Under the pieces are notes generated by a model. It was not told the origin of the DNA. It saw only the letters and a program-made list of their open reading frames with translations, and did not search any database. The translations under genes were made by a program, and so were the position numbers. Shown here piece by piece: positions 34,090 to 35,241 of a DNA stretch of 64,000 nt (within the stretch, counting starts at the first letter, position 1; every line of letters starts with the position of its first letter). Origin of the DNA: Opitutia bacterium (lineage in GTDB: Bacteria; Verrucomicrobiota; Verrucomicrobiia; Opitutales; T3Sed10-336); assembly GCA_003558065.1 (NCBI GenBank), contig PWMU01000007.1, positions 1 to 64,000 on the forward strand, written 5' to 3'.

Positions 34090-34521
34090 GTGTTCCGGTC
34101 GAATCCAGCGGATCGAATTGCCTCTCCGCCCGGACAACCGGCGATGGGCGAGGAGGATTGGGCGCGGTTTCGCGAAGGGATCGAGCTGTTCAACGCGGGT
34201 TCTTTCTGGCACGCCCACGAAGCCTGGGAGGCGGTGTGGCGCCGCAAAACGGGCGACTGTACGTTTTTCTTTAAAGGCCTGATCCAGGCGGCGGCCGCTT
34301 ATCACCAGCTTGAACAGGGGAAATTCCGGGGAATGATGACACACTTTGATAACGCCCGGGCGAAACTTGTCCCGTTTGCTCCCGAGTATCTGGGGGTGAG
34401 GGTTGATGCCCTGCTCGAATCGCTGGATCGTTCCCGGCACGAGGCGGAGCGTCTGGGAAAGACAGGGCTGCAGCCCTGTCCTCGGACGCCGGTTGCGCGT
34501 ATCGAATTCGCGCCATCGTGA
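34090..34521 (+). CDS. DUF309 domain protein
   Basis: A 143-residue protein. The core matches DUF309 (PF03745): GIELFNAGSFWHAHEAWEAVWR followed by FFKGLIQAAAAYHQL, with the conserved HEAWE and the helix after it. The function of the family is unknown. GTG 34090 is preferred because a strong AGGGGGA ribosome binding site overlaps the preceding stop codon; an internal ATG (34144) is the alternative. The C-terminal 25 residues contain a 20-bp DNA palindrome (34461-34480) that is probably a repeat inserted into or accreted by the coding end. Confidence 0.85.
   Translation: MFRSNPADRIASPPGQPAMGEEDWARFREGIELFNAGSFWHAHEAWEAVWRRKTGDCTFFFKGLIQAAAAYHQLEQGKFRGMMTHFDNARAKLVPFAPEYLGVRVDALLESLDRSRHEAERLGKTGLQPCPRTPVARIEFAPS
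34461..34480. repeat. 20-bp perfect palindrome inside the DUF309 gene end
   Basis: GACAGGGCTGCAGCCCTGTC is a perfect palindrome with no spacer. It encodes part of the C-terminal tail (GKTGLQPCP). Palindromes of this sort are typical of REP-like intergenic repeats, here reading through the coding end. Confidence 0.5.
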
Positions 34522-34530
34522 AAGGTGATC

Positions 34531-34611
34531 GGTTAAGGCGCTCGTTGGAAGTAGCTCAGGCTTCCAGCGGGAGACAACACGGTGGAAGCGTGTTCTGCTT
34601 TGAGCTTAACC
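34531..34611. ncRNA. candidate structured element, three-way junction between convergent genes
   Basis: GGTTAAG (34531-34537) with CTC (34541-34543) pairs with GAGCTTAACC (34602-34611), leaving a GCG bulge: a 10-bp outer stem. Inside, GTTGGAAG (34544-34551) pairs with CTTCCAGC (34561-34568), loop TAGCTCAGG, and AACACG (34576-34581) pairs perfectly with CGTGTT (34589-34594), loop GTGGAAG. The element fills the gap between the DUF309 stop and the convergent pal stop. It resembles no riboswitch I know and has no T run. It could be a small RNA, a bidirectional 3' end structure or a palindromic repeat. Confidence 0.5.
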
Positions 34612-34623
34612 GTGCCCTTCGTG

Positions 34624-35241
34624 CTACTGCAGAATGACGAACTCGGTGCGACGATCCTCGGCCATTTGGGATTCGCTGCCTCCCTCGGTGGCTTCGAGAT
34701 CGCCCATGGAGAGAACCTCAATACGATCGCGGGAGATTCCGAGATTGAGGAGATACTCCTTCACGGCGGTGGCGCGCCGGTCGCCAAGCCCGAGATTGTA
34801 CTCGGTCGTTCCGCGCCAGTCGCAGTGGCCTTCCAGGAGAATGTTGTGATCCGGGTTATCGTGAAGGTGGTTGGCAACCTCTTCGATCTTGGCCCGTTCA
34901 CCGGAGCGAATGTTCGACCGGTCGAACTCGAAGTAGACCGACTCGAACATGTCGCGAATCTGCTCGCCGTCCCCGAACTCCTGGCGTTCTTCAAGGCCCG
35001 GGCGCGGTTCCAGAACGAAATCCTCGTCCCAGCCGGTGTCGTCACGATCCTGGGCGTCGAGTTCGTCCGCTCTGGCTGCACGCTCGGCCCGTTCGGCGTC
35101 GCTCAGGTAACCGGACTGGTAATCCGGGTCGCCCATGACCGTCTGATCGGGACTCGGCCGGGGATGGTCACGGCAGGCGGAAAAAAGGAAGAGGACGGAC
35201 AGACCGCCTAGGAAAAGGGTGGTTTTGGTGGCGACGTTCAT
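34624..35241 (-). CDS. pal: Pal-like peptidoglycan-associated lipoprotein
   Basis: A 205-residue outer membrane lipoprotein. A signal peptide with lipobox LFSAC (Cys23) is followed by an acidic linker (residues 24-95) and an OmpA C-terminal domain with SVYFEFDRSNIRSGERAKIEEVANHL, the peptidoglycan-binding ILLEGHCDWRGTTEYNLGLGDRRATAVKEYL motif and ISRDRIEVLSMGDL. Pal links the outer membrane to peptidoglycan as part of the Tol-Pal system; no tol gene is adjacent. A promoter with TTGCAC and CATTAT at 17 bp lies just upstream. It is divergent from the CbiX-like gene. Confidence 0.92.
   Translation of the reverse strand: MNVATKTTLFLGGLSVLFLFSACRDHPRPSPDQTVMGDPDYQSGYLSDAERAERAARADELDAQDRDDTGWDEDFVLEPRPGLEERQEFGDGEQIRDMFESVYFEFDRSNIRSGERAKIEEVANHLHDNPDHNILLEGHCDWRGTTEYNLGLGDRRATAVKEYLLNLGISRDRIEVLSMGDLEATEGGSESQMAEDRRTEFVILQ

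Follow-up and report, generated by a model that had tools for sequence, protein, structure and literature searches.

A dispersed palindromic repeat between convergent DUF309 and pal-like genes of an Opitutia bacterium: very probably a REP-carrying MITE with IS4-type ends

A GTAG end is characteristic of REPs, which are plentiful in Opitutus terrae (PMC3733652). Section 7 of the same paper describes, for three organisms, REP dimers or elements that are nested in palindromes, and that section draws no link between such arrangements and insertion sequences (IS). Subgroup IS4 of the IS4 family is characterized in Table 1 of PMC2266710 by a length of 1400-1650 bp, ends of the form -AATR--------WTW----, the YREK motif and direct repeats of 10-13 bp. 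The element discussed here touches both descriptions. We are highly confident that it is a non-autonomous MITE of the IS4 family, subgroup IS4, that carries a GTAG-footed REP pair, because it exists in many copies, because its ends are common to a full-length IS and because 10-bp duplications are seen in its family. If this is correct, what appeared to be a new RNA can be traced to a family of mobile elements in uncultured Opitutales-like Verrucomicrobia, and a nested REP dimer is tied to identifiable IS4-type ends. There is also a caution in it: good folds between convergent genes can be copies of a MITE.

The window copy and its family

The window, meaning the whole stretch of 64,000 nucleotides that was analysed, comes from Opitutia bacterium GCA_003558065.1 (4.13 Mb, 197 contigs). 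We call this the source genome, and the copies found in it own copies. A first-pass annotation of the window had drawn an element with three stems at 34531-34611 and had offered two readings of it, a new small RNA or a mobile palindromic unit. The stems are indeed there. The extent had to be enlarged to 34520-34620, since the aligned copies put the ends of the element outside the coordinates first given. The parts of the locus are these.

34090..34521, + strand: DUF309 gene (ORF list, family match)
34520..34620, + strand: whole copy of the putative MITE, 101 bp, the family consensus being 103 bp (alignment of copies)
34521-34620: profile match on the window copy, 90.4 bits; the window copy is among the 16 used to build the profile
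34520..34537, + strand: left terminal inverted repeat, GAAAGGTGATCGGTTAAG, the end common to the full-length IS
34551..34573, + strand: inner hairpin 1, a REP unit with GTAG foot, GTAGCTCAGGCTTCCAGCGGGAG; GTAGN{3,8}GCTTCCAGC matches at 34551
34576..34598, - strand: inner hairpin 2, a REP unit in opposite orientation (alignments of copies)
34605..34620, - strand: right terminal inverted repeat; the consensus is 2 bases longer (alignments of copies)
34624..35241, - strand: pal-like gene of the OmpA family, convergent with DUF309 (TIGR02802 Pal_lipo, 95.1 bits, below the cut-off of 125.35)

The gap between the two genes had been described as barely longer than the element, and this holds for the enlarged element too: the ORFs end at 34521 and 34624, and the gap is almost filled. 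The stop codon of DUF309 is TGA at 34519-34521, and its last two bases are the first two of the MITE. The ends of the window copy have diverged from the family (34520-34538 has 3 mismatches to the 19-base end pattern), the stem of inner hairpin 1 is partly mutated, and the foot of inner hairpin 2 reads GCAG, against GTAG in the consensus.

The feature is one copy of a dispersed repeat of about 103 bp and not a unique RNA. With 34521-34621 as query there are 31 BLAST-level matches in the source genome. A sequence-only profile, built from 16 own copies, was run on 19 genomes; the search scored the best candidates, at most 150 per genome, and weak copies may be missed. It gave at least 41 rows in the source genome, which are 40 distinct places, fragments included (one row is the reverse strand of another). 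Relatives gave at least 24 rows (G001), at least 23 (G002) and at least 16 (G003), some of them reverse-strand rows or fragments. Two rows in G006 are both strands of one place, G005 and G007 have one weak partial row each, and in the remaining 12 of the 19 genomes no row was found among the best candidates scored. Second copies, on which the mobile reading depended, thus exist by the dozen in the source genome, at BLAST level as well as by profile. They are many and dispersed and, at about 103 bp, too short for a transposase gene, as MITEs are.

The site can be followed in other genomes through the Pal protein, by which 80 loci were fetched. The best Pal matches are titled Verrucomicrobia, Opitutales and Opitutia MAGs, from samples that their names suggest to be of sediment type. 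Seven loci were checked for a DUF309 neighbour; in L044 and L046, DUF309 is convergent with pal and the element is absent there. A 23-base REP-like stretch in L098 is the single match to the repeat at E 0.01 in the 80 loci. In the relatives without the element here, the DNA has diverged too far to provide a clean empty site.

Ends, target duplications and the parent insertion sequence

The ends of the family, GAATGGCACTCGGTTAAG, recur as the terminal inverted repeats of an IS of 1597 bp that is intact in a genome of the same genus (G002), so the repeat shares its terminal inverted repeats with an autonomous IS, which is expected of a MITE. With up to 3 mismatches, the end pattern GAATGGCRCTCGGTTAAGG has 65 matches in the source genome and its reversed control has 1. 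With up to 2 mismatches it is present in 20 of 132 genomes, the source included, and all 8 of the source's family are among these. Other length classes have the same ends, namely 136-137 bp (4 elements), 139, 145, 180 and 234 bp.

The complete IS lies at G002:C62:6598-8194. It has perfect 22-bp inverted repeats, GAATGGCACTCGGTTAAGCCGG, a perfect 10-bp target duplication, CCTCTAACGT, on both sides, and one ORF, which encodes a transposase of 491 aa. This protein matches NCBIfam NF033592 (IS4 family transposase) with 202.1 bits, the cut-off being 115, and Pfam PF01609 with 76.8 bits; its translation contains YREK with the spacing Y-2-R-3-E-6-K in YFHRWEIEVRFRDIK. In size, end pattern, YREK and repeat length this IS, represented by one complete copy, agrees with subgroup IS4 as tabulated in PMC2266710.

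In the source genome itself, one end match (C105:24381-24499) runs into unique DNA and then into the end of the contig. A search with those 119 bases gave matches in 2 of 132 genomes, the source and G002, and they are the left 119 bp of the same IS. The sole PF01609 match in the source genome (C134, 25.4 bits) also lies at a contig end, and this piece is 78% identical to residues 155-320 of the G002 transposase. From C105 and C134 it follows that the source genome holds parts of the parent IS; a search of it found these pieces and no complete copy.

A more distant relative of the transposase is encoded in another family of the same order (G075:C64, L179:1382-2575, - strand; 35% identity over 417 aligned positions), on a contig that carries related ends, e.g. 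GAATGGCACTAGTTTAAGG.

Target-site duplications were assessed in 30 distinct elements with a recognisable end pair, from the source genome and relatives; they are all those that the pairing script recovered from the loci supplied to it. The 10 bases flanking the left end agree with the 10 flanking the right end at a mean of 7.03 positions, compared with 4.24 when permuted, and none of 5000 permutations reached the observed value; comparison of inverted flanks gives 3.57. Nine or ten positions match in 10 of the 30 elements, five of them perfectly, and the lowest values are 3 and 4. Elements of 102-106 bp (n=10) have a mean of 6.3/10. Some long end pairs (e.g. 275 and 391 bp) may be chance pairings and were kept in the count of 30. 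One further copy, on C75, has AGGTTTGACC on both sides; it is additional to the 30 and was missed by the pairing script because of an insertion in its end. The target duplications expected of a MITE are therefore seen in the family and are not recognisable at the window copy, where 5 of 10 positions match.

These observations suggest how the family may have spread. The ends of about 18 bp are those of an autonomous IS encoding a DDE (YREK) transposase. Acting in trans, this enzyme presumably cuts them and moves the unit to new sites, frequently ones with a YTA centre, where 10 bp are duplicated. Two opposite GTAG-footed REP hairpins, a BIME-like pair, would have been captured by the MITE and multiplied with it; the alternative order of events is that IS4 ends were gained around a BIME. 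That the window copy arrived by the same route we infer from its family, as the duplication around this copy can no longer be recognised. Once inserted, the hairpins appear to drift with no detectable selection on pairing. Of the two readings first offered for the locus, the mobile palindromic unit is the one that dozens of copies, target duplications in the family and a parent transposon strongly support.

Folding, covariation and gene context

What would an RNA at this place look like? According to the first reading it would be a new small structured RNA, a three-way junction transcribed between the two genes. The three stems can be drawn at 34531-34611 as it had proposed: an outer stem of 7+3 bp interrupted by a GCG bulge, an 8-bp hairpin that includes one G.T pair and has a 9-nt loop, and a 6-bp hairpin with a 7-nt loop. 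Both strands fold better than shuffles, the + strand with z -4.0 (1 of 200 shuffles as good) and the - strand with z -2.65 (3 of 200). This speaks for an RNA. The three-way junction itself, at -23.1 kcal/mol, lies 12.7 kcal/mol above the optimum, a single long hairpin of the same 81 bases (-35.8), so that another fold is favoured. The 8-bp hairpin is specific to the window copy: 26 of 28 copies lack its C-G pair at alignment columns 30/55, 19 of 27 lack the C-G pair at columns 28/58, and the inner hairpin that is found family-wide is a different one.

Covariation was assessed in an alignment of 28 copies (17 own and 11 from relatives), from which fragments, copies with long insertions and copies cut by an intron or a contig end were excluded. 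For the three-stem structure, 79.5% of cells are paired, compared with 78.7% in shuffles (27 of 500 as high); the covariation score is 0.094 compared with 0.085 (49 of 500); and 11 cells are changed on both sides compared with 8.6 (65 of 500). These slight excesses, which count in favour of the RNA, are within the range described for related sequences without structure. Pairs changed on both sides number 4, against 4.2 in shuffles (361 of 500 as high). For the family's own hairpins no measure rises above the shuffles, and RNAalifold finds a compensatory change in none of 12 pairs. In slid controls a smaller share of cells is paired, which any palindromic family would be expected to show. At gathering level Rfam has no match at the locus, and over the whole window it has one tRNA only. 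The palindromes are explained by dispersed copies with target duplications, and L044 and L046 have the two genes without the element. Absence of covariation in homologues had been named in advance as the outcome that would count against an RNA; convincing covariation, and with it the compensatory base changes expected of a structured RNA, is lacking in the 28 copies, and we reject this reading as extremely improbable.

Another use of the structure can be imagined. An inserted copy might have been co-opted as a bidirectional 3'-end structure, a stabiliser or attenuator, for the convergent mRNAs. Effects of MITEs and REPs on the stability and termination of mRNA have been reported or hypothesised (PMC3733652). 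To see the context of the copies, a crude codon-score gene caller was applied to 27 of the 40 own places: 10 are convergent, 8 tandem and 3 divergent, 2 overlap a called ORF and 4 are at contig ends. Convergent settings thus hold 10 of the 21 own copies that have two called neighbours and no overlap, compared with 8 of the 48 neighbouring gene pairs of the window (Fisher p 0.015); the window copy, itself reported on account of its convergent neighbours, counts among these 21. Several own copies are within 5 bp of the 3' end of a called gene. The bias may reflect either that insertions at 3' ends are tolerated or mild co-option. However, the same bias is expected if selection removes insertions elsewhere, and the gene caller is crude. 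There is no compensatory conservation, and L044 and L046 do without the element at this site. An intrinsic terminator, a GC-rich hairpin followed by a T run, is not seen either: neither strand has a T run, as had been said of the locus from the beginning. We consider co-option unlikely, with some chance of being right; the MITE may mildly affect the two convergent mRNAs at their 3' ends.

The inner REP pair and comparison with known systems

In the consensus both inner hairpins have GTAG at the foot and GCTTCCAGC within the hairpin, and they are oriented head to head. The REP-core pattern GTAGN{3,8}GCTTCCAGC was searched in 19 genomes, each with a control. Matches (controls in brackets) number 18 (6) in the source, 5 (4) in G001, 24 (4) in G002, 12 (5) in G003, 3 (1) in G004, 25 (5) in G005, 4 (1) in G006, 44 (1) in G007 and 67 (1) in G010, which is of another family; the remaining genomes have 0-3. 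Judged by these controls the excess is clear in G002, G005, G007 and G010 and modest, threefold, in the source. Eight stretches rich in the REP core (27 matches in G005/G007 and 10 in G010) contain no MITE end, and GTAG-footed REPs thus stand free in sister genomes, outside MITE ends. In the sister genus, at G005:C98, such REPs flank on either side a RAYT-like ORF that is 248 aa long and matches NF047646 with 75.9 bits (below the cut-off of 80); REPs flanking a RAYT were seen only there.

Could the whole unit then be a plain REP doublet, a BIME or REPIN, moved by RAYT and not by an IS4 transposase? Its inner hairpins are GTAG-footed REPs in opposite orientation, and the RAYT model has matches in 9 of 9 genomes searched, above the cut-off in 5 of the 9. 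The unit ends, however, at IS4-type inverted repeats with 10-bp duplications. To our knowledge, RAYT transposition is not expected to make such duplications. The own REP-core matches listed, 8 of the 18, are all inside MITE profile matches, and the one own RAYT examined, on C155, is flanked by a different repeat. RAYT as sole mover is rejected on account of that neighbouring repeat and of the IS4-type ends with their duplications; we regard it as very improbable.

The RAYT on C155 (L040:1438-2043, - strand) scores 89.5 bits with NF047646. The palindromic repeat near it is GGGAGCGCGGGCATCCCTGCCCGC; a search of the window for the core of this repeat, with up to 2 mismatches allowed, gave no match.

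A variant of our preferred reading, the IS4-type MITE, would make the element doubly mobile. The IS4 ends would let the unit travel as a DNA transposon, the REP pair inside would stay a RAYT substrate for single-strand transposition, and MITEs could then be vehicles that spread and re-seed REP families. This is speculative, and we think it rather improbable.

Longer elements with the same IS4-type ends were also seen. The 136-137-bp class (L125, L126, L128 and L130; source C22, C104, C110 and C191) has another GTAG-footed hairpin pair, which would fit recurrent capture, and perfect 10-bp duplications in 2 of its 4 elements. Elements of about 180-240 bp (L140, L149, L152 and L183; source C100, C28, C48 and C58) have a nested palindrome around GTGGGGTGTGTCC.

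In four MITE copies (L035:1501-1618, L036:1-38, L037:9-167 and L039:1501-1576; source C66, C105, C188 and C103) DNA that starts GTGTGCCCGGCATGGG cuts in directly behind a REP hairpin plus CTA. A fifth copy of the cutting DNA is at L038:1501-1661 (source C189). The own pieces score 21 bits with Rfam group-II-D1D4-3 (RF02001), below the cut-off of 32. The cutting DNA probably represents a group II intron that targets hairpins and is broken off where contigs end, because homologues in G009 and G003 score above the cut-off (96.3 and 70.3 bits) and likewise come after GC-rich hairpin-like DNA. An Acido-Lenti-1 RNA (RF01687, 49 bits; L300:3433-3478, - strand) lies some 50 bases upstream of where the G003 intron starts.

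In the literature searched we found no report that combines a MITE, the IS4 family and REPs, and we claim absence within that literature only. The nearest described systems each resemble the present one in part. With the IS of subgroup IS4, as tabulated in PMC2266710, the parent IS agrees in its 1597 bp, in -AATR--------WTW----, in YREK (YFHRWEIEVRFRDIK), in the 10-bp duplication and in NF033592, while the MITE itself has no transposase gene and only the ends in common. The bacterial MITEs RUP, NEMIS and Nezha, named in PMC3733652 among others, are alike in being 70-300 bp long with terminal inverted repeats of 15-30 bp, no coding capacity and many copies, often beside genes; the present MITE differs in the GTAG-type REP pair inside its terminal inverted repeats. 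ISRm22 is an IS4-family element associated with REPs and is similar in that respect, yet in what PMC1525189 describes of it the ISRm22 type inserts into REPs, whereas here the REPs are within IS-derived ends. REP/BIME systems with RAYT (REPtrons) share the GTAG foot, and our REPs match those around the RAYT-like gene in G005:C98, but the present REPs sit inside IS ends. The GTAG-15 dimers of Anabaena variabilis, with nested GTAG or CGTC REPs (PMC3733652, section 7), are alike in that REP dimers lie inside a longer palindrome; what distinguishes the present family from that account is that its outer palindrome consists of the ends of an IS4-family IS, with target duplications.
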